Assembly (NCBI GenBank): GCA_018333515.1
Contig: JAGXSZ010000030.1
Coordinates: 126,501-190,500 of the forward strand
DNA from: Actinomycetota bacterium
GTDB taxonomy: Bacteria > Actinomycetota > Aquicultoria > Aquicultorales > Aquicultoraceae
Reading direction: 5' to 3'
DNA: 64,000 nucleotides
A program made the translations under genes and the position numbers. The notes below the pieces were generated by a model. That model made no database searches. It was not told the DNA's origin and saw only the letters and a list, made by a program, of their open reading frames with translations. Of this stretch, positions 8,726 through 64,000 are shown in pieces. Position 1 is the first letter of the stretch. The number at the start of each line of letters is the position of its first letter.

Positions 8726-9739
8726 CTAAGCTTTAGCGGAGACGGTGTCGCGGCACCCCATATCGCCCGAATAGATAATTAAATCACGTCCGGCCTGCTT
8801 GGCCTCGTAAAGGGCACTATCGGCGGTCGCGATAAGCTCATCCTTATTCCGGGCGCAAGCCGGATAGTCGGACACGCCGACGCTTACCGTGCATTTTAAA
8901 TCGGCGGCGACATCCGCTAATTCCTCAGCTATGAATGCCGGGAGCCGTTTGTTGATGCGCTTGGCTACCCGAATAGCGTGTTTGACATGAGTTGAAGGTA
9001 GGATGACGAGGAACTCCTCGCCTCCATAGCGAACCGCCAGGTCGTCCCCGCGAATGGCGTTCTTTAGAAACTTCGCGAAGGCCTTGAGAACCTCATCACC
9101 GACCTGGTGACCATAGGTATCGTTTACTTTTTTGAAATGGTCGAGGTCGGCCATGAGCACCGATAGCGGCTTGCCGCTCATTTGGGCGTCCGCCATCGCC
9201 CTTTCGAGCTTTACGACCATGCTTTTGCGGTTAAAGAGCCCGGTCAGAGGGTCGGTCTCGGCGTCTTCTTTGGCAAGGTTAAGATTATGCTCGATCTCCA
9301 GCCAAAGCATTGCGTTTTGCTCCTCGCGCTCGGCTATCATTTTGTCTTGTACCTTAAGTTTCCGCTCCTTCTCCTCTATTCTTGCCGCAAACGAGTTAAC
9401 CTCATCGGCCAGTGTCGACACGCAAGCTATCTCATCGACCTCAAGGCGTCCGTCGAAGCGCCCGGAGACCTTGAGTTCTTTAAGATGGTCGGAGATGAGT
9501 TCGATCGAACCGAGGACGCGAATAATCGTGGAGGCAACCCAAATCGCAAAGCCCATACTCGCGAGCGATAGTATCGCCGCCAACGGTCGAGCGTAAGACG
9601 CCGTCGCAACAGCGCTCTCACTTAAGATAAACACAAGCGCAAGTAGCCCGATCAATGGTGAAATCGCGGCAAATATGAAGACCGCACGAGCAATCGGCTT
9701 CCTATTCAGTTTCCGCAAATTCGACAATACGAGCTTCAA
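8726..9739 (-). CDS. Membrane-bound diguanylate cyclase (GGDEF)
   Basis: A 337-residue c-di-GMP synthase. Two N-terminal membrane helices (about 17-40 and 48-68) are followed by a HAMP-like/coiled-coil linker (about 70-160) and a C-terminal GGDEF domain. The domain carries DPLTGLFNRK, DLDHFKKVNDTYGH and the active motif GGEEF. An RGDD sits five residues before GGEEF, the position of the product-inhibition I-site (RxxD). No EAL domain. The lack of an extracellular sensory loop suggests sensing through the membrane or coiled coil (inference). Confidence 0.9.
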   Translation of the reverse strand: MKLVLSNLRKLNRKPIARAVFIFAAISPLIGLLALVFILSESAVATASYARPLAAILSLASMGFAIWVASTIIRVLGSIELISDHLKELKVSGRFDGRLEVDEIACVSTLADEVNSFAARIEEKERKLKVQDKMIAEREEQNAMLWLEIEHNLNLAKEDAETDPLTGLFNRKSMVVKLERAMADAQMSGKPLSVLMADLDHFKKVNDTYGHQVGDEVLKAFAKFLKNAIRGDDLAVRYGGEEFLVILPSTHVKHAIRVAKRINKRLPAFIAEELADVAADLKCTVSVGVSDYPACARNKDELIATADSALYEAKQAGRDLIIYSGDMGCRDTVSAKA

Positions 9740-10029: not shown

Positions 10030-10557
10030 ATGGCCATGAACGAGCGTGAATCGACACTCAACGCGAACCATGCGGCAAAAAAACCCGCAAAAGGAAAGAG
10101 GATATTAACCATCGTTATCGTCGTGGTTGTGCTGGCGGCGGCTCTGTTTGGCGGCGGCTGGCGGCAAGGGCGCGCGCAGGTCGCCGCACAAAAGGCCGAC
10201 TATGAAAGCCGGCTCCAAGCGGTCGAGGATGAGTTGGCACAAACACAAGAGCGACTTGCCGCTCAAATGAATCGGGCTCTTTTGATGGAGGCTCGCGCCG
10301 CGCTATATCGCAGTGCGATTGACTTGGACCGGCGAAACTTTGGCATAGCCACCACCCACCTGCGGGAAGCCGCAACCGCGTTGGGGAAAATCGATGACGT
10401 GAACGGGGGCTTGGATCAAACGCGGCTGAATGCTTTGCAATCGGCGATTGCGGAGACCGACATCAATGTCGCCGTGAACCTGGAGGAACAGCGCGCGAAG
10501 ATTTTAGGGTTTACCGAAGAACTCGATGCTTTGGTGTCTGAGTCGACAGATCGATAG
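10030..10557 (+). CDS. Membrane-anchored coiled-coil protein
   Basis: About 175 residues: a basic N-terminal cytoplasmic tail (KKPAKGKR), one membrane helix (about residues 27-45) and an extracytoplasmic coiled coil (SRLQAVEDELAQTQERLAAQ), then a helical domain with a tetratricopeptide-like feel (YRSAIDLDRRNFGIATTHLREAATAL). The ATG at 10030 fits the GAAAGG site; a GTG at 10021 is possible. Single gene upstream of the hydrogenase promoter region. I recognise no family. Confidence 0.6.
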   Translation: MAMNERESTLNANHAAKKPAKGKRILTIVIVVVVLAAALFGGGWRQGRAQVAAQKADYESRLQAVEDELAQTQERLAAQMNRALLMEARAALYRSAIDLDRRNFGIATTHLREAATALGKIDDVNGGLDQTRLNALQSAIAETDINVAVNLEEQRAKILGFTEELDALVSESTDR

Positions 10558-10566
10558 AATCATAGT

Positions 10567-10650
10567 GGGACGTCGGATTGTCTAAGCGATCTGATACGTA
10601 TATAGTATATGCCTTAAGTCCACAGTTGTCTTTACCGATTCCGACGTCCC
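10567..10650. repeat. Inverted repeat with GGGACGTCGGA arms
   Basis: Perfect 11-bp arms (GGGACGTCGGA at 10567-10577; its complement at 10640-10650) enclose about 60 bp in the gap before hydB. The GGGACGT core resembles the ends of the repeat family seen at 16172, 18493 and 63803. It may be a small non-autonomous element or a stem in the hydB leader. Confidence 0.45.
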
Positions 10651-47626: not shown

Positions 47627-47764
47627 GAGCGACGCTCTCTCTCTTTGCTTAAACATACGATGGTGTGCCGAAGCCAACAGTACCCGCTAGCCCTGCCAAC
47701 TGGGGCGCGATATTATTTGCGCATGCCGATGCGCTATGGTAAACTGTCGCCAAATCATATACGT

Positions 47765-47990
47765 CCCAGGTGACGTGCGACCGACATAAAGAATGGTCAG
47801 CGTAGAATAGGGAAGCTGGTGAAAGTCCAGCGCGAGCCCGTCACTGTAATCGGGGAGCGAACCATAGAGTGCCACCGGCAAGAGCGGGGTGAAATCCGCA
47901 AAGGCCGGGAAGGCGTGGCAAGCGAAGATCCGGAAGCCAGGAGACCTGCCTGGGACATGCAAGGGAGACCACTTCCGAGGCCGGAGTGGG
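47765..47990 (+). promoter_or_regulatory. Cobalamin (B12) riboswitch
   Basis: The conserved pieces are in order: an early stem near 47768, GGGAAGCTGGTGAAAGTCC, CACTGTAATCGGGGAGC, GCCACCGGC, a GCGGGGTGAA stretch, and the B12 box GCCAGGAGACCTGCC near 47937-47951. It precedes cbiM and the cobalt uptake genes, the expected target. Confidence 0.92.
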
Positions 47991-53683: not shown

Positions 53684-53758
<75 letters not shown>

Positions 53759-53852
53759 CACTACAGCAGGTGAGAGGTATATAGGCCTCTCACTTTTGTA
53801 TTTGAATGGGCTCCATGGTCACAGGAATCCATGAATAATTATTTTGCGTCGA

Positions 53853-54299
53853 TTATGGCATGTCTTCGGCAGGTTTTTCGCCGATTATGTGTAGCAGATC
53901 AGCCGTTCGCATTATGCTTATTCTCTGGTATTCCTTTAATTCAAGTAGGTGCCGGTCGCCGGAGATTATAAGGTCCGCATTCGCTACAAGAGCGCATTCC
54001 AAAATTCTGTTATCAGATTCGTGGGAGATTGCTGTTATTCTGGTCGTCCCCTTCACATATTCCCTGATAGCCGCTCGCATTATCTTCACAGCATCGTTTA
54101 CGTTTTCTTCTGACCAATCAAACTTGTCGCGCATAATTCTTGCGACTTCATTAATTATTTCGGGAGAGCAAATAAGGTGGATTTTACGAAGCCTTGCCAA
54201 CTCAAAACAGCTTCTTGCTGCACCAAGCCCCTTTTTCTTGCGTCCAAGGAAAGCGGCGATAAAAACGTTGGCATCAAAGACAACTCGCAGCCTATTCAT
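53853..54299 (-). CDS. PIN-domain toxin (COG1569-type)
   Basis: A 148-residue PIN RNase. Asp in VVFDANVFIAAFLG, Glu in SPEIINEVARIM and acidic residues in SDNRILECALVANADLIISGDRHLL form the metal site. It cuts RNA when not bound by its antitoxin. The start overlaps the end of the antitoxin gene, so the two are co-translated. Part of the tRNA-Val island. Confidence 0.85.
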   Translation of the reverse strand: MNRLRVVFDANVFIAAFLGRKKKGLGAARSCFELARLRKIHLICSPEIINEVARIMRDKFDWSEENVNDAVKIMRAAIREYVKGTTRITAISHESDNRILECALVANADLIISGDRHLLELKEYQRISIMRTADLLHIIGEKPAEDMP

Positions 54300-54531
54300 G
54301 TATTATCCTGTCGATGTCATCCTCGCTAATAATATTAAAGTTTTTAGCTGTTCTTTCGCCCAGTCGCTGGATTGTTTGCCATCTCACCTCGTTCAAATAA
54401 TCCTCATACACTTTAACCATCTCTCGAAACAGCTCACTCTTAGTCTTCCGTCGATCGCGGGCAAGGTCTTCATATTCCTCATAGGTTTCAGGTGGTACAG
54501 AAAATGTAAGTGTTTTACTTATACGGCCCAT
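54292..54531 (-). CDS. RHH antitoxin of the PIN pair
   Basis: A 79-residue ribbon-helix-helix protein (MGRISKTLTFSVPPETYEE, KTKSELFREMVKVYEDYL). ATG 54531 has GGAGG before it; a longer frame to 54600 is rejected. It should bind its own promoter and neutralise the PIN toxin. Confidence 0.85.
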   Translation of the reverse strand: MGRISKTLTFSVPPETYEEYEDLARDRRKTKSELFREMVKVYEDYLNEVRWQTIQRLGERTAKNFNIISEDDIDRIIHE

Positions 54532-54721
54532 AATAATGCCTCCTCTGTAAGACAGATCATTATCCATAATAATATACTTTATTGCCCAACGCTTCAACAC
54601 GGGTTTTACCTAATTTGCATGGCATTTAAGATTCTCGATTCGGGGATCGCTATCATAAATTAAGCAGCAGAGCCTGTTCAGCGACAATTAAAATTACCCA
54701 TAGGAAGAAATAATTGATGCC

Positions 54722-55017
54722 GGACAGTTTCGCGTGAGGCAAAGGAGAAGAAAAGCCGCATTCCGAAATTTAAGAACGTAGAGGAAGAACATGAGTTTTG
54801 GGCGACCCACAGTGGCGCGGACTACATCGACGAATTGGAGGATATCACCGAGTTTGTAGTCATCACGCCTCCAAAAAGGAAAACTACTATTCGTTTGGAT
54901 GACGCGGCAATAGAACGCATCAAAGCCATAGCTGAACGCAGAGGCATGGCTTGGCAAACCTTAATGAGGTCGTGGGTGTATGAGCGCCTCGAAGAGGAGG
55001 AAAAACGCGCCGGATAG
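54722..55017 (+). pseudogene. CopG/BrnA-like antitoxin without a proper start
   Basis: The frame reads KSRIPKFKNVEEEHEFWATH, then ELEDITEFVVITPPKRKT and a C-terminal RHH (DDAAIERIKAIAERRGMAWQTLMRSWVYERLEEEEK), the CopG_antitoxin pattern. In this frame there is no ATG/GTG/TTG between the upstream stop at about 54716 and TTG 54835, and no toxin gene adjoins. Probably a decayed orphan, unless an unusual start is used. Confidence 0.6.
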
Positions 55018-55131
55018 AACCACACCCAGCTTTCTTGTATTTATTGTAAGCGCTCGGTAGAATCTTAAGAAAAGCATGTAGTTAATAACAATATGTCGTG
55101 CTACTAAATACCTACAAGGATTTGAGAGTTT

Positions 55132-56613
55132 TTGACAACATACAACCAAAATCCCGAACAGAAAGCCCGAGACAATATCGATGAGCTGTTAGGGCAGGCA
55201 GGGTGGGCGGTTCAGCGCAACACGAAGATCGACCTCAATGTCGGCTTGGGTCAGGCCGTGCGCGAATATCAAACCGATGTCGGCCCGGCGGACTATGTGC
55301 TATTCGTGGATAAAAAAGCGGTTGGTGTGATCGAGGCCAAGCGTGAAGAAGAGGGGCAGCGACTTACCGTCCATGAAACACAAACGGAAGGCTATGCCGG
55401 CGCCAAGCTGAAGTGGGTTAACAACAAAGAGCCGTTGCCGTTCCTCTACGAGAGCACCGGCATTCTTACTCGCTTCACCGATGCCCGCGATCCCAAACCG
55501 CGTTCGCGCGAGGTTTTCAGCTTTCACCGCCCCGAAACACTTAAGGAATGGCTCGCGCAAGGCGACAGCCTGCGCGAACGCTTGCAGCATGTACCAATAC
55601 TCAACCCGAACTACCTACCCGCAAAGGAATTGCGCCTGCGCGATTGTCAGGAAGTCGCCATCAACAATCTCGAAACCTCTTTCAAGGCAGACCGCCCGCG
55701 CGCCCTAATACAAATGGCGACCGGAGCCGGCAAAACTTACACCGCGATCACTTCAATTTATCGCCTGCTCAAGCATGCTCAAGCCAAGCGCGTTCAAATC
55801 GAACGCGCGCAACACTACCAACAACAACTCACCGACTGGGAAGCCTCCGGCAAACAAGGCCGCAAACCCAAAACCCCAAAAACCCTACCACCTCTGACCG
55901 CTGAAGAATTAGCCGAATTGCCCAACCTGCCGGAAGGGTGGGGGTGGTTCTTGATGGGTGACGTTTGTCTAGAATCGATTCTTGGAAAAATGCTGGATAG
56001 GGAGAAAAACAAAGGCGAACTAAAGCCATATCTGAGAAACATTAATGTACGTTGGGGGGAATTCGACCTTGATGACTTGCTTGAAATGCGATTTGAAGAG
56101 TCTGAGTATGTTCGATACGGTTTGCAAGACGGTGACTTGGTTATCTGTGAAGGCGGGGAACCCGGTCGTTGTGCGGTGTGGCGGAAAGCGCTTGGTCAGG
56201 ATATGCAATTTCAAAAAGCATTGCACCGTGTACGTTTTACTAATGCCATAAATTCATTTTTCGTGCAACTGTATTTTGAGCGTTGCGCATCAAATCGCAG
56301 GCTTGAGAAAATGTTTACTGGAACCACCATCAAGCATTTGACAGGCGAGAAGCTGGCAAGAATGTCCATTCCCATGTGCTCAATTGATGAACAGGCTGAG
56401 ATTGTGCTAGCACTTGAATCAAAGTTTTCTGAGCTCGACCAGCTCGACCAAACCATCACTACATCCCTACAACAAGCCGAAGCTCTGCGCCAATCTATCC
56501 TGAAAAAAGCCTTCTCCGGCCAACTGGTGCCGCAGGACTCGCGCGACGAACCCGCCTCGGCTTTGCTGGCACGCATCAAGGCGGAAAAAAGTGGCGCCGT
56601 TGAAGCACGGTAA
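55132..56613 (+). CDS. Chimeric type I restriction protein: HsdR N-terminus fused to HsdS C-terminus
   Basis: A 493-residue open frame. Residues 1 to about 222 are an HsdR start: endonuclease core (GPADYVLFVDKKAVGVIEAKRE) and Walker A (ALIQMATGAGKTYTA). It then switches, within AKRVQIERAQHYQQQL, to an HsdS sequence: linker, one target-recognition domain (PEGWGWFLMGDVC to HLTGEKLARMSIP) and the C-terminal coiled coil (QQAEALRQSILKKAFSGQLV). The helicase motor and the first TRD are missing. A GCGCGTTC/GAACGCGC palindrome (55788-55808) marks the join. TTG start. Restriction activity is unlikely; the S half might still guide HsdM (inference). Confidence 0.85.
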   Translation: MTTYNQNPEQKARDNIDELLGQAGWAVQRNTKIDLNVGLGQAVREYQTDVGPADYVLFVDKKAVGVIEAKREEEGQRLTVHETQTEGYAGAKLKWVNNKEPLPFLYESTGILTRFTDARDPKPRSREVFSFHRPETLKEWLAQGDSLRERLQHVPILNPNYLPAKELRLRDCQEVAINNLETSFKADRPRALIQMATGAGKTYTAITSIYRLLKHAQAKRVQIERAQHYQQQLTDWEASGKQGRKPKTPKTLPPLTAEELAELPNLPEGWGWFLMGDVCLESILGKMLDREKNKGELKPYLRNINVRWGEFDLDDLLEMRFEESEYVRYGLQDGDLVICEGGEPGRCAVWRKALGQDMQFQKALHRVRFTNAINSFFVQLYFERCASNRRLEKMFTGTTIKHLTGEKLARMSIPMCSIDEQAEIVLALESKFSELDQLDQTITTSLQQAEALRQSILKKAFSGQLVPQDSRDEPASALLARIKAEKSGAVEAR

Positions 56614-56745
56614 AATCGGACGAGCAGTGTCGTGGAAGCGGGTGTAAATTCGGCTTTATCGGTAGCTCAAAAGATATGTGGGTGCTAATATGGGCATAAT
56701 AGCTAAAACACCAATACCATAAAAAGCAGATTACGTAGAAGGAAG

Positions 56746-57663
56746 ATGCGAGTGGAAAAAGTATCGGTTTGTGCGCCTGCGTCCGATATTGGTCCCGTGT
56801 ATGCCCGGTTTTTTTCCTCTGGGGTGCTCAGGGAGCTGGCACATAAAGGCCATTCGACTATAGCGGCCCGGTTGGCGAGGCAATGTCATCTCTTTGACCA
56901 GTTTGGATCAGAAATGGCAGTGGGGGATTTCTATGACGCCATTTTCAAACGGTTGACCCGCGATTACCGTCACGAATATATCTATAAAAATGCTATTGCT
57001 GAAAAAATCCTGCTAGGCAAGCACAATCTAAACACTGCTTTCATGTTAATGGAGTTTCGTGCCGACGATTGCATAGCCGATGCGGTTGTACTGAATGGAA
57101 CTTCCCATGTTTATGAAATCAAATCGGAGATGGACAGCTTTGACCGGCTCGACCGCCAGCTTGCCGCGTATCAAAAGATGTTTGATTTCATAACAATCAT
57201 CACTACTGAACGGCTCTACAAAGTGGTCAATGAGCGGATTCCGAAGGAAGTGGGTATCATGGTGCTTGCCGATGGCAGGTATCAATTCAGGCGGAACACA
57301 TGTCGCCGAGAGGCAATCAGCAATAAATACAATGTCGACCCGATTGTTATTTTCAACTCATTGCAAAGGCGGGAATACCTAAGGATTATCAAAAAAGAGT
57401 TGGGGGCATCGTTGACACATTATCCCAATACCCAGATTTACGGTGAGGCAAAGAAATATTTCGAGCAACTAACGCCTGAGTTAGCCCATGATGCTATGGT
57501 TGAGACACTTAAGAACCGCAGTGATACATTGCGGGTGGCTGACTTTGTTGACGTTGTTCCCAGCAGTCTAAAAGCAGCCGCGTTATCAATGCGACTGACA
57601 AGAGAAGAGCGCAACAGATTCATAGGTCTACTGCACAAAGGCATTGCATCGGTATTTGCATAG
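56746..57663 (+). CDS. sce7726-family PD-(D/E)XK nuclease-like protein
   Basis: A 305-residue protein. The central region shows a PD-(D/E)XK core: Glu103, Asp112 in IADAVVLNG, Glu124-x-Lys126 in HVYEIKSEMDS, then a helix with Gln138 and Tyr142 (RQLAAYQKMFDFITIIT). The N-terminal 80 and C-terminal 120 residues are helical. The layout matches sce7726-type proteins, named for their usual partner sce7725. First of three tightly packed genes between the chimeric hsdRS and hsdM. Confidence 0.7.
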   Translation: MRVEKVSVCAPASDIGPVYARFFSSGVLRELAHKGHSTIAARLARQCHLFDQFGSEMAVGDFYDAIFKRLTRDYRHEYIYKNAIAEKILLGKHNLNTAFMLMEFRADDCIADAVVLNGTSHVYEIKSEMDSFDRLDRQLAAYQKMFDFITIITTERLYKVVNERIPKEVGIMVLADGRYQFRRNTCRREAISNKYNVDPIVIFNSLQRREYLRIIKKELGASLTHYPNTQIYGEAKKYFEQLTPELAHDAMVETLKNRSDTLRVADFVDVVPSSLKAAALSMRLTREERNRFIGLLHKGIASVFA

Positions 57664-57686
57664 CCCCACCAGGAACAGGAGAGCGC

Positions 57687-58637
57687 ATGTACTATCCATT
57701 TATTCGTGGTAAACAATTTGAGCTTGTTATGCTTCGTGAAATGGCGCCCAGGATTGCGGAATGGGGCTTTGTGCCGATTATTGAACCGGTAAAGGGAAAT
57801 TTCCCCGCACTGAAGAAAGCGCTTGACCAGCTTATTGAACAGAATTGCCGTTTTATTATTATTACGAATCCGAGTGTTGGAGAATTGACCGCAGATAGTT
57901 CTGCGTTACGTACCGAAATCTTTGATGAACATCTTTGTGATTACAATAACTTTTCAATCGGCTTTAATCTGTCCGCAACAGATACAAACGACACAGCGAA
58001 AAGACTCTTTGAGATGCATGATAGAAACATCGCTATTATCCATAACGGTTTTTCTGATGGTAAAGCGCTATCCGAACTGATCGAAGAAAAAAATCCAACA
58101 ATAACTGAGCATGTGTTTGTCGAACAACAGAGTTCAACAATGCTCTACCGCAAGCACTTTAAGGGTATGAAAAGAATTATCGTAAAAGACGGATTCGAAA
58201 GTCGCATCAATCGAGAATATCCGCCCTCAGAACCGTTTTCTGAGCTTTATCTAACCTTTGAAGACATGGGATGCGATGGTTTTGGTGACTTCTTAATAGT
58301 CGGAAGTGATTTCAGAGAGGGTGGTGGTCCAGCCTACGCCATCGCGATTCATCTAACTTATGCAGATTCGGATGCAGACGATGCTATAGCAATCAAGCAT
58401 TATATATCCGATCAAACTGATACCCCTAAAGATCCGGCTGGAAAATTTCTCGAAGCGCTCAGAAAACTTGTTGATGATGTGCGGGGCGTTAATTCGCCAG
58501 TTTTCAGATCAACAGCCATAGAGGCGTATATGCAGCTTTACAGTGATCAGCATTTTCCAGGTTTAGGATATGTGAAAAAGCTCTCTATGCAGCACCATAT
58601 CGAATTGATGGCGCATCTCTTATTTTCGGAGGCATAA
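57687..58637 (+). CDS. sce7725/Beta-family protein
   Basis: A 316-residue protein resembling the Beta-protein family (PF14350) from phage T4 relatives and the sce7725 group. The start YYPFIRGKQFELVMLREMAP is characteristic, followed by VPIIEPVKGNFPALKKALDQL and a TIM-barrel-like pattern of strands (FIIITNPSVGEL, NIAIIHNGFSD, FVEQQSS). AGGA site before the ATG and 23 bp from the nuclease gene; 2 bp from the RES gene. Biochemical role unknown. Confidence 0.65.
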   Translation: MYYPFIRGKQFELVMLREMAPRIAEWGFVPIIEPVKGNFPALKKALDQLIEQNCRFIIITNPSVGELTADSSALRTEIFDEHLCDYNNFSIGFNLSATDTNDTAKRLFEMHDRNIAIIHNGFSDGKALSELIEEKNPTITEHVFVEQQSSTMLYRKHFKGMKRIIVKDGFESRINREYPPSEPFSELYLTFEDMGCDGFGDFLIVGSDFREGGGPAYAIAIHLTYADSDADDAIAIKHYISDQTDTPKDPAGKFLEALRKLVDDVRGVNSPVFRSTAIEAYMQLYSDQHFPGLGYVKKLSMQHHIELMAHLLFSEA

Positions 58638-58639
58638 AC

Positions 58640-59671
58640 ATGTATTGCTGCGCCACTTGTTTCGGGGACTCATTCCTTGATAAACGCATTCCTGAAATCT
58701 CAAAACAGATCGGAAAGTGCGGCTTTTGCTATGCTATCAATGTAGTATTGATTGAGCCAACAGCGCTACTCGACTACTTCCAGTCGGTAAGTTCGATTTA
58801 TGCCGAATGCTTTGAATCTGATGCGAAACCTCTGATTGAATGGTTTAAGGACGATTGGCAAATATTCTCTTCACTTGATCAGATCAACGCGAAAGCTTTA
58901 TTGGGCGAAATACTTGATGACGGCGAGATCGTGCGCAAGGAATTTGTTGTTCGGGATGTTCCGGTATTGGGTGCTGTTGAGAAATGGGCGACTTTTCGCG
59001 ATGAGATTATGAGGAAAAATCGGTTTTTCTTTCAGCACGACCTAGATCTTGATAGTTTAAAAGAGTTGTTTGACACATATCTGGAGACAGATGCTTCTGA
59101 ATTCGGCGGCTTGCTTTATAGGGCCAGAATTCAACTAGATAATTCAGGCATACCGCTAGATGAGATGGGCTGTCCCTCTGCGGAACATGCCAAGAACGGT
59201 AGAGCCAATCCGGTGGGAATTCCATATCTATATGTTGCAACGACACCAGAAACTGCAATTGCTGAAACACGTCCCCATCCGGGCGACCAGTTGTCAGTTG
59301 CGCAATTCGAAGTGACGACTGCCCTTCGTCTTCTGAACCTGATGAATCCGCGAAAAACAATCTCTCCTTTTTCTGTAGTTAGCGAGGACGAGTTGCGAGC
59401 ACTAAGATATGATCTAGAGTTTTTATGTCACCTCGAAAACGAGCTTTCAAAACCCGTTCTCCCTCGCGTCGCCGATTTAGAGTATCTTCCGACTCAATAT
59501 TTATGCGAATTTATAAAGAACTGCGGTTATGATGGCGTTGTTTATAAAAGTTCAATCAGTAACGGTGCTAACGTCGCACTTTTCGATGATTCAAAGGTAC
59601 AGGCTGAGGAATTGACCCAGTATGAAGTAACGAAATTAATATATGAGCAGGAACAGAGGCAAGCATTATGA
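58640..59671 (+). CDS. Zinc-finger RES-domain protein (NAD-targeting toxin-like)
   Basis: A 343-residue protein. Residues 1-30 contain Cys4-x2-Cys7 and Cys27-x2-Cys30, a likely zinc finger. A helical HEPN/RES-type N-terminal region (about 35-150) is followed by a RES domain: Arg163 in GLLYRARIQ, Tyr198 in PYLYVATTPE, Glu209 in TAIAETRP and Ser residues in VVYKSSISNGANVALFD. RES toxins such as MbcT break down NAD+. No Xre-type antitoxin is adjacent, unlike usual RES pairs; instead it follows sce7726 and sce7725. Confidence 0.75.
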   Translation: MYCCATCFGDSFLDKRIPEISKQIGKCGFCYAINVVLIEPTALLDYFQSVSSIYAECFESDAKPLIEWFKDDWQIFSSLDQINAKALLGEILDDGEIVRKEFVVRDVPVLGAVEKWATFRDEIMRKNRFFFQHDLDLDSLKELFDTYLETDASEFGGLLYRARIQLDNSGIPLDEMGCPSAEHAKNGRANPVGIPYLYVATTPETAIAETRPHPGDQLSVAQFEVTTALRLLNLMNPRKTISPFSVVSEDELRALRYDLEFLCHLENELSKPVLPRVADLEYLPTQYLCEFIKNCGYDGVVYKSSISNGANVALFDDSKVQAEELTQYEVTKLIYEQEQRQAL

Positions 59672-59895
59672 GTAATAATACAGCATCTATAGTTTCCAAG
59701 ATGGGGAGTTTCTGCACCACGTTGCGCGACAACGGCGGGGAGAAAAGCATGATGCTGATTGAGTATGTGCAAAATTTGCACATTGCTAATGTGTTCGCCG
59801 AGGGTCGGCTCAGCCAGTTTGGTGCAAAATGCACATTACGAATCAATCCAACTACTAAGGATTTCTTAGTGGTTCAGCAAGAAGGTAAAGCATGA
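59668..59895 (+). pseudogene. Partial duplicate of the hsdM 5' end
   Basis: A 75-codon frame. Its first 23 codons (TASIVSK, FCTTLRDN) copy the start of the hsdM gene directly downstream. From codon 24 (GGEKSMMLIEYVQNLHIA) it diverges into unrelated sequence and stops in the hsdM ribosome region. Probably a recombination scar; expression as a small protein cannot be excluded because the frame is open and overlaps the RES gene stop. Confidence 0.65.
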
Positions 59896-61373
59896 ACGCA
59901 ACCGCATCTATCGTTTCAAAAGTCTGGAGTTTCTGCACCACGTTGCGCGACGACGGCGTGAGCTATGGCGATTATCTGGAGCAACTAACATACCTCATCT
60001 TTCTGAAAATGGCGGACGAATATAGCCAACCGCCTTATAACCGCAAAGTGGATATACCCGCTGAATACAATTGGCAAAGTCTTAAGCCTAAGCGTGGCGC
60101 GGAGCTGGAGGTGCACTACGTGACGCTCTTGCGCGAACTGGGCAACAAGCCGGGGATGCTGGGGCAGATTTTCACCAAGGCGCAAAACAAGATTCAAGAC
60201 CCGGCCAAGCTGTATCGCTTGATTGATATGGTCAACGAAACTCAGTGGGTGACGATGGGCGCCGATATCAAGGGCGACATCTACGAAGGCTTGCTCGAAA
60301 GAAATGCGGAAGACACCAAGTCCGGTGCCGGTCAATACTTCACCCCACGCGCGCTGATTAAGGCGATGGTGGAGTGCGTGCGTCCGGAGCCGAACAAGAC
60401 CATTGCCGATCCGGCCTGCGGCACGGGCGGATTCTTTTTGGCAGCTTACGATTTTCTGGTGGCGCCGCAGCAGCTGGACAAGGACCAGAAAGCGTTTCTT
60501 AAGCACGAAACCTTTAACGGCAATGAAATCGTCGCGGGAACGCGCCGACTGTGCTTGATGAATATGTTTTTGCACAACATCGGCGAGATTGACGGCGAGA
60601 GCATGGTATCGCCCAACGACGCACTGGTGGCCGACAGCGGCAAGCGCTTCGACTATGTGTTGGCGAATCCGCCTTTCGGCAAGAAAAGCGCGATGAGCTT
60701 TACCAACGAGGAAGGCGAACAGGAAAAAGACGACCTGACTTACAACCGACAGGATTTCTGGGCTACCACGTCTAATAAACAACTCAACTTCGTGCAGCAC
60801 ATCCGCACCATGCTAAAAACCACCGGCCGCGCTGCCGTAGTCGTGCCTGATAATGTTCTGTTCGAAGGCGGCGCAGGAGAGACGGTGCGTAAGAAGCTGC
60901 TCGAAACCACCGAGCTGCACACCATACTGCGCCTGCCCACCGGCGTCTTTTACGCCAATGGTGTCAAGGCCAACGTGCTGTTCTTCGATAACCGCGCGGC
61001 CGGCAAGGAGTCGTGGACAAAAGAAGTCTGGTACTACGACTACCGCACCAACGTTCACCACACCCTAAAAAAGAAACCGCTGCGCTATGAAGATTTGCAG
61101 GAATTCATCGCCTGCTACAACCCCCTCAATCGCCATGAGCGCAACCCACTGTGGAACGAGAAAGACAACCCGGAAGGGCGCTGGCGCAAATTCACCTACG
61201 AACAAATCATCGCCCGCGACAAAACCAGCCTAGATATCTTCTGGCTCAAAGACAAGAGTCTAGCCGACCTAGACAACCTACCCGAACCCGACGAACTCGC
61301 GTTAGAAATAATCGAAAACCTCGAGGCCGGACTAAACAGCTTCAGGGAAATTATTGGCGCAATTGAATCGTAG
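59892..61373 (+). CDS. hsdM: Type I DNA methyltransferase HsdM
   Basis: A 493-residue N6-adenine methyltransferase. N-terminal HsdM helical domain (DYLEQLTYLIFLKMADEY), SAM site ADPACGTGGFFLAAYDF, catalytic motif NPPFGKK and the C-terminal FAEGRW-like KDNPEGRWRKF region are all present. Full length, no damage seen. It could pair with the single-TRD HsdS part of the upstream chimera. Last gene before the right att copy. Confidence 0.93.
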   Translation: MNATASIVSKVWSFCTTLRDDGVSYGDYLEQLTYLIFLKMADEYSQPPYNRKVDIPAEYNWQSLKPKRGAELEVHYVTLLRELGNKPGMLGQIFTKAQNKIQDPAKLYRLIDMVNETQWVTMGADIKGDIYEGLLERNAEDTKSGAGQYFTPRALIKAMVECVRPEPNKTIADPACGTGGFFLAAYDFLVAPQQLDKDQKAFLKHETFNGNEIVAGTRRLCLMNMFLHNIGEIDGESMVSPNDALVADSGKRFDYVLANPPFGKKSAMSFTNEEGEQEKDDLTYNRQDFWATTSNKQLNFVQHIRTMLKTTGRAAVVVPDNVLFEGGAGETVRKKLLETTELHTILRLPTGVFYANGVKANVLFFDNRAAGKESWTKEVWYYDYRTNVHHTLKKKPLRYEDLQEFIACYNPLNRHERNPLWNEKDNPEGRWRKFTYEQIIARDKTSLDIFWLKDKSLADLDNLPEPDELALEIIENLEAGLNSFREIIGAIES

Positions 61374-61478
61374 TATTTGGTGGACCTTAATAATTCATTG
61401 CAACGGACACGTTGAAAAGGGCCGCTCGACTCGATTGTTCTATGCAAGACAGTGAGCAAACAATATGAGGCAACTGGT

Positions 61479-61516
61479 TTGACACGGCAGGGGTCGGAGG
61501 TTCAAATCCTCTAGCG
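61479..61516 (+). repeat. Island attachment repeat, right copy (tRNA-Val remnant)
   Basis: A 38-bp copy of the tRNA-Val 3' part (one mismatch). The sequence beyond (TTCACAG) departs from the tRNA acceptor end and CCA. It marks the far boundary of a 7.8-kb island starting at tRNA-Val. Confidence 0.85.
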
Positions 61517-61937
61517 TTCACAGCTCAGAGGACTAGAATCACCAAGTTAGTGGTTCTAGACTTTTATTTTGGGTATATGTTAGGTGCGGCATGGTGATTT
61601 TCGTGGCCAAGACTTGCGTCATTTATTCCCGTCAAAGCGATTACGATATTCGAACGTGGACCGGCTGGGGTTCGCAGCCCCGTCGATATGTTGTAAGTTT
61701 AAATAAGGCAGCTCTAGGCAATATTATATACCGATCCGTATAAGACGCCATAGTAAAACAGCGTTTAGTCAAAACAGGTAAATTTAGCACTGATTATAGC
61801 GACAAGCGATGTATTTATAGAGGCGTCTTATATGGGCACAAGCAGCAATTTTGAAGTATTATGCGGATCAGTATAAACATAGTTAGCCAGAAGCATGAGG
61901 TAGGGAATCGACTGTAGATGAGTGTCGGGGTCCGAGA
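61517..61937. other. Gap with a 147-bp inverted-repeat element
   Basis: Non-coding DNA between the island and the cassettes. ATACCGATCCGTATAA (61728-61743) and the complement of ATACTGATCCGCATAA (61859-61874) form 16-bp ends (14/16), and a nested perfect 11-bp pair (TATAAGACGCC at 61739; complement at 61822) overlaps the left end. A GTTAGCC at 61882 resembles a degraded cassette core site. No integrase or gene was found. Confidence 0.5.
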
Positions 61938-61949
61938 GTGGGGGACGTC

Positions 61950-62348
61950 ATGCGAGAGCCCAAGTCGTTGCTTCCTGGTCTGTTTGCCGCCGGCGATGCA
62001 GGAGAGCTGGAGTCCTTCGACCAGTTCCTGCACGAAGACGTCATCGTGCACGCCCCAGCAGGACTCTCTACTGTCGGCCTGCAGAACGAGAGGAACTCCT
62101 GGCGCAAAGCCAGAGACGCCATGCCGGACATCCATCACGAGTTCCTTGAGGTGGTGGCCGATGGCCCGGTGGTGGCAGCTCGTTGCGTCGTTACCGGTAC
62201 CTTGCGCGGTGCGTACGGCACGTTCTCGGCGCAAGGCCGATCCTTCAGGGTGGACCAGGCACTATTCGCACACGTTCGAGACGGCAAGATTGACGAGTTG
62301 TGGGAGATCGTTGATACCGACAATCTCCGCGAGCAGCTCGCAGAGTAG
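61950..62348 (+). CDS. SnoaL/NTF2-like protein in integron cassette 1
   Basis: A 132-residue NTF2-fold protein (ESFDQFLHEDVIVHAP, PDIHHEFLEVVADGPVVAARCVVTGTLRGAY, DQALFAHVRDGKIDELWEIVD). The family covers polyketide cyclases, isomerases and many unknowns; no catalytic call is possible. Its GC-richer codon use differs from the hsd island. ATG 61950 or GTG 61938. An attC-like site follows 21 bp after the stop, as in a gene cassette. Confidence 0.75.
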   Translation: MREPKSLLPGLFAAGDAGELESFDQFLHEDVIVHAPAGLSTVGLQNERNSWRKARDAMPDIHHEFLEVVADGPVVAARCVVTGTLRGAYGTFSAQGRSFRVDQALFAHVRDGKIDELWEIVDTDNLREQLAE

Positions 62349-62369
62349 CCGCACTAGCACGTTGGCTCT

Positions 62370-62456
62370 GGCTAACAAGCGCATCAACCCGACGCGCAGA
62401 AGCGCTGGGATAGACTGGAATCGCTCGTCGCGCGGGTTATGCGCAACACGTTAGGC
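62370..62456 (+). repeat. attC-like site 1 (87 bp)
   Basis: Starts with the inverse core GGCTAAC and ends with the core GTTAGGC. The arms pair with bulges, left GCGCATcaACCCGaCGCG against right ATGCGC/GGGTT/CGCG, around a loop near 62405-62430. This is the architecture of an integron attC (59-base element). Confidence 0.85.
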
Positions 62457-62473
62457 TTACAAAGGGGAATTTT

Positions 62474-62689
62474 ATGGCTGGCATGCTTCAAATAATCACG
62501 TACTTACTTGCTTTTTACCTTGTAGTAAAAGGCCTAGAAATTTTACAAATTGCCTTGGCATCTAATCGAGAAAAACGTGGTGGCATTATTACGTTTGGAG
62601 CGCTAGTTCTAATAGCCTGCATAATAGCTGCTGGAGGTTTCGTCAGTATGCAAGACCAGCAGGCGCAGTCATTAAGTAGTGATAGGTAG
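62474..62689 (+). CDS. 71-residue membrane protein in integron cassette 2
   Basis: Two hydrophobic helices (about residues 3-22 and 34-56) separated by a basic loop (ASNREKRGG). The ATG has AAGGGG before it and starts 24 bp after the attC1 core, the usual geometry of a cassette gene. No family recognised. Confidence 0.7.
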   Translation: MAGMLQIITYLLAFYLVVKGLEILQIALASNREKRGGIITFGALVLIACIIAAGGFVSMQDQQAQSLSSDR

Positions 62690-62694
62690 AAACT

Positions 62695-62754
62695 GCCTAA
62701 CCCATCCATCAAGCGGGACGCGCTAAAGCGCGCCCCTTATGTCAAACGTTATGC
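62695..62754 (+). repeat. attC-like site 2 (60 bp)
   Basis: GCCTAAC at the left end, GTTATGC at the right end, with GGGACGCGC-taaa-GCGCGCCCC as the inner stem. Short attC with near-perfect folding; begins six bases after the cassette-2 stop codon. Confidence 0.85.
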
Positions 62755-62775
62755 ACATTCTTTGGGGGAGTGGAA

Positions 62776-63654
62776 ATGGTAGATCGAGAAGACCTGATCA
62801 TCCCTGTGTATCTGAACCAGCGAGTGGTGTTCGACCTCGTTGCCATGCTTCAGGGCGGGATAGCAGCCGTGACGCAGGTGTCCCAGACGCAGTCCGACTC
62901 GAGTAGCGTGACCGGTGAGGTTTCCTCCACATTCGGGCTGAGTCAGGCGTTGTCTTCGCTGCTGCGCATTGACTTCTCGGGGAAAGCGGGAGGTGGGCTG
63001 GCGAACGAAACAGGCGAGACTCGCAGCGAACAGCGAATCCACACACCTGCTTCGCTGTTCATCGCTCTTCGTGCTCTGCTTCGGGAGAAGCACTTCATCA
63101 TCGAAGACGCAAGCGACGCGGCGTTCGCGCCGGGCGATATTGTTGAGTTCTCGGCTGTGCTGCAGCGGAACCCGCTGCTCGAGACCATCGATTCGTTTGT
63201 TGAGCTGGTCGACATGATGCAGGCATTCTCGCAGGGCGAGCCAAAGCAGAAGGGTGGCCAGTCCTCTGACCTGAACAAGATGAAGCGCCAGATGGAATCC
63301 TTCGTGAAGACGCTGAAGGGCAGCGACACGGTGGACCTCACAACAAGTCCCCTTCGGTCCTCTCACCGCGCCGTGATCACCCTGGAGCAGCAGTACCTGA
63401 ATGACCCATCGATGGCCGATCTTGTTGACGGCACGTTCCGTGTTGTCGGCAAGCTCACCAGAGTCGTTGCCGACACGGATGAGCCCATCAGCCTCAATCG
63501 GAAGTCGGCGATGGGTAAGCTTCCACCGTCGGCGCTTGCCGACATGAAGAAGGCCTTCGATAGTCCTGAACTTGGCGGCTTCTCTTTCCCGCCGCTAGAG
63601 TGGGAGATACCCGGCCCGGCAATACACGTAATGCCAATCGCAATCTTCGCTTAG
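62776..63654 (+). CDS. DUF6414-like protein in integron cassette 3
   Basis: A 292-residue protein beginning MVDREDLIIPVYLNQRVVFD, with LQGGIAAVTQVSQTQ, a Ser/Gly-rich stretch (SGKAGGGLANETGETRSEQR), RIHTPASLFIALRALL and a C-terminal beta region. The pattern resembles DUF6414 proteins by memory only; function unknown. GGGGGAG lies before ATG 62776 (GTG 62770 is an alternative). GC content is higher than in the island. An attC-like site follows at once. Confidence 0.7.
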   Translation: MVDREDLIIPVYLNQRVVFDLVAMLQGGIAAVTQVSQTQSDSSSVTGEVSSTFGLSQALSSLLRIDFSGKAGGGLANETGETRSEQRIHTPASLFIALRALLREKHFIIEDASDAAFAPGDIVEFSAVLQRNPLLETIDSFVELVDMMQAFSQGEPKQKGGQSSDLNKMKRQMESFVKTLKGSDTVDLTTSPLRSSHRAVITLEQQYLNDPSMADLVDGTFRVVGKLTRVVADTDEPISLNRKSAMGKLPPSALADMKKAFDSPELGGFSFPPLEWEIPGPAIHVMPIAIFA

Positions 63655-63658
63655 TCGG

Positions 63659-63744
63659 GCATAACCCGCGGATCAACCCGGCACGCGCGTGGTTTTCGTA
63701 CTCTGTCAGCGTTGGCATGCGGGTTATCCGCAAGAACGTTATGT
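63659..63744 (+). repeat. attC-like site 3 (86 bp)
   Basis: Inverse core GCATAAC, core GTTATGT. Left CCCGCGGATCAACCCG pairs with right CGGGTTATCCGC with a bulge, the same plan as site 1 (including the shared GATCAACCCG/ATCAACCCG string). Confidence 0.82.
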
Positions 63745-64000
63745 AGGGATAATTAAACCTGAAAAATAATCGATTATGAGGGTTTGGGGACGTTGAGGGT
63801 TTGGGGACGTTGTTACGGGAGTTACGGATGTTTTCTTGTTTTAGGAGAACCTTTGCTATTGTACGATATTTTCAACTCGCAACCGTAGCAACCGTAGCAA
63901 CGTCCCCTACAACTGGAGCCGCACGGCGCGCAGGTTGTCCATCAGACGTTATGCGGAAATAGATTTTATAGTTTGCCTAGTTGTGCTAATATGCACACAT
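63745..64000. other. Cassette 4: ORF-less, with GGGGACGTTG inverted repeat and partial attC
   Basis: No gene is visible. GAGGGTTTGGGGACGTT is repeated in tandem at about 63778-63811. Arms of 25 bp (63803-63827 against 63883-63907, 22/25) start with GGGGACGTTG and form a MITE-like unit. A GTTATGC core at 63948-63954 with GCACGGCGCGC just before it suggests a fourth, degenerate attC. The rest is AT-rich. Confidence 0.55.

Follow-up and report, generated by a model that had tools for sequence, protein, structure and literature searches.

The stretch of DNA analysed here, referred to throughout as the window, is 64 kb long and corresponds to bases 126501-190500 of the 309,977-base contig C30, in a 2.33-Mb draft genome of 40 contigs. 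A tRNA-Val(GAC) gene at 53684-53758 marks the left side of the locus, and an ordinary cobalamin riboswitch (47751-47967, 107 bits) lies further to the left. From within the tRNA gene extends an island (53714-61516) whose left att copy is at 53714-53751 and whose right-hand att, at 61479-61516 on the plus strand, is a copy of the tRNA 3' end (97% identity over 38 bp). Within the island, a PIN-like gene is paired with a ribbon-helix-helix-like one, and there are also what may be a piece of hsdR, a gene with a RES domain, and hsdM; an integrase was not identified. A preliminary description of the window had placed an integron-like array just past this att copy, and there we found a remnant of the 3' end of an intI gene, an attI and a series of gene cassettes, all on the plus strand.

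Three attC sites, all on the plus strand, were the only matches when both strands of the window were searched even at E<=10 with a covariance model (R1) trained on 14 attC sites at other loci; these sites came from genomes of the same family, including two from the genome analysed here, and every site of the window array was left out. Site 1 lies at 62370-62456 (44.9 bits, E 4.9e-9), site 2 at 62695-62754 (35.9 bits, E 8.1e-7) and site 3 at 63659-63744 (25.5 bits, E 2.9e-4). The same three intervals had been picked out as imperfect palindromes in the preliminary description, which had made its reading of them as attC sites depend on a significant covariance score; the coordinates are confirmed and all three scores are significant. 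Besides being imperfect palindromes, the three sites possess R''/R' core boxes and L boxes, and their bottom strands give fold z values of -3.7, -2.3 and -2.0, respectively; single-stranded, these strands form long arms with extrahelical (bulged) bases, the expected recombining form. An Rfam scan gave no attC match. The next 99 kb of the same contig past the array (L011-L015) yielded no R1 match, nor did 14 of 35 relatives at E<=0.1. These 35 genomes, which span the family, order and class, include 21 with attC sites by R1. Scanning 22 loci for palindromes without a model returned 33 matches versus 2 in Markov-1 decoys, a result that validates the attC family rather than the three window sites, which its cut-off missed. 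Hairpins are common near gene ends, and one might therefore see in these palindromes chance structures, terminators or repetitive palindromes from outside integrons, but the model matches only three places in 64 kb and the cassettes close exactly (see below), so that we regard this explanation as practically dismissed.

The strongest support for the cassettes is a closure test that is independent of the covariance model. In it, the R'' box of a cassette is compared with the 7-mer at the start of the same cassette, and complementarity is expected as both come from one circular site. Cassettes 1 to 3 close as 7/7 reverse complements (GTTAGCC/GGCTAAC, GTTAGGC/GCCTAAC and GTTATGC/GCATAAC), whereas boxes that face each other inside the window array match only at 6/7 positions; over all arrays examined, exact matches numbered 18/43 for cassette closure versus 4/43 for in-array neighbours. 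All three cassettes are on the plus strand. Cassette 1 (61883-62450) encodes a SnoaL-like protein (ORF 61938-62348; PF07366, E 7e-25), cassette 2 (62451-62748) a 71-aa protein (ORF 62474-62689) without Pfam match, and cassette 3 (62749-63738) a DUF6414 protein (ORF 62770-63654; PF19952, E 3e-29). This is the alternation of genes and attC sites that had been described beforehand, in which the SnoaL-like and DUF6414-like assignments are now backed by Pfam and the supposed 71-aa membrane protein corresponds to an ORF that is indeed present.

A damaged fourth cassette (63739-63948, plus strand) follows, with no long gene, an inverted repeat and then the right half of an attC. This half, at about 63923-63954, ends in GTTATGC at 63948-63954, as the preliminary description had it for a fourth region, and survives as an attC right half; it is not a full attC, since the region has no R1 match and folds no better than shuffles. 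The next cassette, with a BrnT/CopG-like pair, starts at 63949 on the plus strand and continues past the window end at 64000. Locus L010 (C30:186001-206000; window coordinate = L010 coordinate + 59500) covers this continuation, and the array, which had been expected to run off the window, does so for about 6.7 kb, to approximately L010 11250, where a subtilase gene and thrS follow. Extending along the contig disclosed at least three further attC sites by R1 (L010 8259-8318, which the half site of the fourth region resembles, 8895-8961 and 10501-10572), more cassettes and a second attI; no intact intI was found on this contig. The array genes past the window encode the BrnT/CopG-like pair, an HTH (HigA-like) protein, an acetyltransferase, a DUF4062 protein, two DUF4145 proteins and an HNH protein, and several attC sites are half-deleted. 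Two copies of an element of about 100 bp with inverted ends, GGGGACGTTGTTACGG...CCGTAACAACGTCCCC, were also noticed, one in the window (63803-63907, about 105 bp), adjoining the left side of the half-deleted attC, and one at L010 6479-6573; the element looks like a small non-autonomous mobile element.

The intI 3'-end remnant at the array head (61639-61696, plus strand) has an internal deletion and a TAA at the same place as the intI end; it aligns with intI of Ca. A. primus as well as with further copies, the DNA identity being 90% from 61655. The interval from its 3' end to cassette 1 (61697-61882, plus strand, with the crossover after G 61882) is the putative attI, so assigned by homology to the interval between intI and the first cassette of Ca. 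A. primus, to which its approximately 185 bp are 90% identical. It contains the repeats GTCTTATATGG (61825-61835) and GTATTATGCGG (61856-61866), an inverted copy GATCCGTATAAGAC (61733-61746) and an inverted core pair, TATAAAC-ATA-GTTAGCC. The repeats, GTNTTATRYGG, are conserved across copies, and conserved blocks are shared across the full-length attI copies aligned; by analogy with attI1, we take the repeats and the core pair to be putative integrase-binding repeats. The first cassette closes 7/7 against the attI junction, and the same 7/7 closure is found in Ca. A. primus. The direction of intI is toward attI and the cassettes in the remnant, in the nearly complete gene of locus L055 and in the intact gene of a class-level relative (G020). 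The array had at first been called one without integrase, a CALIN, and this holds inasmuch as an intact intI is absent and at least two attC sites are present, but a bare attC cluster it is not, with an intI 3' remnant and an attI at its head. The IntegronFinder definition, attC sites without nearby IntI, would equally fit a strict CALIN in which cassettes inserted off-target into the chromosome and no integron ever existed; with the attI and the intI remnant exactly at the array head, and the first cassette closing against that attI, such an origin appears highly improbable as long as the attI assignment holds.

No match over the IntI cut-off was found in this genome, a draft whose 40 contigs break at integron repeats, so that an intact intI could be absent from the assembly; what resembles IntI there is either a C-terminal fragment, in some cases interrupted by stops, or an ordinary tyrosine recombinase. 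The end of contig C15 (L016) and the start of contig C23 (L018) have the same attC-containing stretch in common, and the assembly therefore broke at cassette repeats, and no single contig shows the full length of the true array. The apparent common left ends of intI fragments near codons CHTFRHS were considered as well; we draw no claim from them, and they may partly reflect a conservation maximum. An intact intI over the family cut-off was found in none of the 11 Aquicultor-family genomes searched, the closest to intact in the family being that of Ca. A. primus, which is nearly complete and frameshifted, with two parts scoring 200 and 173 bits. Judging by draft genomes, complete integrons do exist in the class of Aquicultor, at least in G020 and G017: in G020, an intact IntI (481 bits, with a cut-off of 265), whose closest solved structure is the integron integrase 2A3V (E 9e-88), is followed downstream by five attC sites on its own strand, and G017 has an intact integrase and an array in the ordinary divergent layout. 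The array in the window might still be shuffled in trans, by an integrase encoded at a locus missing from the assembly, on a different replicon or on a mobile element passing through. Such an activity would agree with the good conservation of attI in copies with a dead intI, with the differences in cassettes between sister species at the same locus and with the location of assembly gaps in arrays; the absence of an intact intI from all 11 family genomes and the half-deletion of several attC sites speak against it, and we consider it unlikely.

The relatives offer a view of the history of the locus. In Ca. A. secundus (G008), a decayed intI, attI and cassettes come straight after tRNA-Val, and the region immediately past the tRNA matches window 61479-61594, whereas in this genome the hsdM island stands between tRNA-Val and the 38-bp copy of its end, and the integron comes after. 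The simplest reading of this synteny is that the integron locus is older than the island, which would have inserted later at tRNA-Val. HsdM (59892-61373) has about 98% protein identity to its copies in G002 and G003, and ThrS 94% to that of G003, which suggests that hsdM was recently exchanged or is under strong constraint; the hsdM 3' end is, in addition, duplicated before the second attI (L010 6585-6760). The tRNA-Gly-Cys-Val...thrS locus is conserved and its cassettes vary between species, G002 and G003 having other cassettes there; tRNA-Gly-Cys-Val also lies near thrS in G005 and G007, in both without attC or attI. Because the DUF6414 cassette was found in only 1 of 60 genomes searched and the locus of relatives has other cassettes or none, the cassette genes are not normal neighbours of this locus, the possibility of the same genes at the same spacing in relatives having been raised at the outset as an objection to an integron.

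The attI is repeated to an unusual extent. Counting partial copies, which nearly always retain the crossover end, there are 9 in this genome, 8 in G002 and 4 each in G003 and G010, with copies and fragments interspersed inside arrays. Within the window array, the second attI (about L010 6858-7045) is preceded by the duplicated hsdM end, and a fragment of a third attI lies at L010 5566-5660. G010 has three attI copies in alternation with attC sites, and the first cassettes of two of these copies close 7/7; two copies are identical for 213 nt to the left of the crossover and have different cassettes to the right of it. Recombination between attC and attI, excising the attI module as a cassette, is a possible account of this pair, which homologous recombination would fit too. 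More generally, the extra copies may have arisen by tandem arrival of tRNA-Val islands, as attI-type cassettes or by homologous recombination.

The first of these routes, taken to its full extent, would have each attI delivered by an integrative island targeting tRNA-Val, with the many copies being tandem, repeated arrivals. An attI follows tRNA-Val(GAC) in G008 and G000 and tRNA-Val(TAC) in G000 C31 and G002 C30; in G002, hsdM, attI and two attC sites share a segment bounded by two tRNA-Val 3' ends; and hsdM is joined directly to an intI tail and attI in G002, in G003 and in the second copy of G000. Many attI copies (C15, C23, C1 and G010 C19), though, have no nearby tRNA end, and no island integrase was identified, so that delivery by islands seems to us tenable at best as a minority explanation. 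Short tRNA-like matches near attI in C16, C5 and G010 C100 were not counted, since they could be pieces of other tRNAs. Directly downstream of the second tRNA-Val (TAC), two species have an intI tail and attI (L060 6389-6912 and L113 4599-5118), and therefore both tRNA-Val genes host the module. The DNA pattern of the attI end was matched in Ca. Aquicultor primus contig MELI01000085, Peptococcaceae bacterium SCADC1_2_3, a Phycisphaerae genome and other actinobacterial bins. Among genomes labelled as other groups or phyla, the attI end was seen in L066, L071 (Peptococcaceae SCADC1_2_3), L068 (Phycisphaerae), L069 and L073, with the intI tail also in L066 and L071; transfer or mis-binning are possible explanations for its presence there. 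No match to the pattern was found in viral contigs, so carriage by phages was not seen. A rather speculative extension is that attI and the intI 3' piece form a dispersed unit, moved by tRNA-Val islands or as attI-type cassettes, that seeds new capture points along the chromosome, served by an integrase in trans, and would give a genome of Ca. Aquicultor many small integron platforms in place of a single one.

Our preferred reading is that the array in the window is very probably a sedentary integron on the chromosome of a Candidatus Aquicultor species, and that this integron no longer has its integrase. The ancestral unit would have consisted of intI, an attI just past the intI 3' end and cassettes, all on one strand between tRNA-Val(GAC) and thrS. 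Acting on circular cassettes, IntI would have recombined attC, in the form of its folded bottom strand, into attI, thus building up the array; later, decay would have reduced intI to a fragment, an island that targets tRNA-Val and bears a type I methylase would have inserted upstream, and deletions and small inserts would have broken parts of the array. The attC sites, the cassette boundaries, the attI, the intI remnant, the layout, the synteny and the lack of an intact intI in the assembly can all be read from the sequence; we infer both the past activity of IntI and its present inactivity, as well as the order of the events. In terms of its sequence, then, the locus is a decayed sedentary integron with interspersed attI copies in Candidatus Aquicultor, and its layout, with intI directed toward the cassettes as in Treponema, is unusual. 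Gene-capturing integrons thus appear to have operated in this uncultured genus, and reports of complete integrons from its phylum are scarce. For sedentary arrays, the picture of one attI per integron is challenged by the repeated attI copies, and the Aquicultor arrays constitute a natural series for the study of integron death and attI spread.

No paper naming both integrons and Aquicultor was found in the literature. A review lists the phylum Actinobacteria as integron-carrying (PMC8618304), and IntegronFinder 2.0 reported for Actinobacteria no complete integron, one lone integrase and few CALINs (PMC9024848). The locus resembles a CALIN (PMC9024848) in that it has at least two attC sites and no intact IntI was found in the draft assembly, and differs from one in that its head still carries attI and a 3' remnant of intI. 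In layout it is like the archaeal integrons known from metagenome-assembled genomes, where attI lies directly downstream of intI (PMC9668308), although the host here is bacterial. The Treponema integron, whose intI is transcribed toward attI, in the cassette direction, and which has one attI per integron (PMC3607928), likewise provides a parallel in layout, with standard R and L boxes and a chromosomal array; the host here is instead a member of the Actinomycetota, intI is decayed and there are several attI copies per array. Finally, delta-attI-type gene cassettes of class 1 and 2 integrons have a full or truncated attI inside arrays in place of attC (PMC12901181), and attI copies and fragments also lie inside the Aquicultor arrays, where they may be cassettes of this type; in contrast to the known ones, they number up to 9 per genome, are mostly longer, often come with an intI 3' fragment and reside in sedentary arrays.
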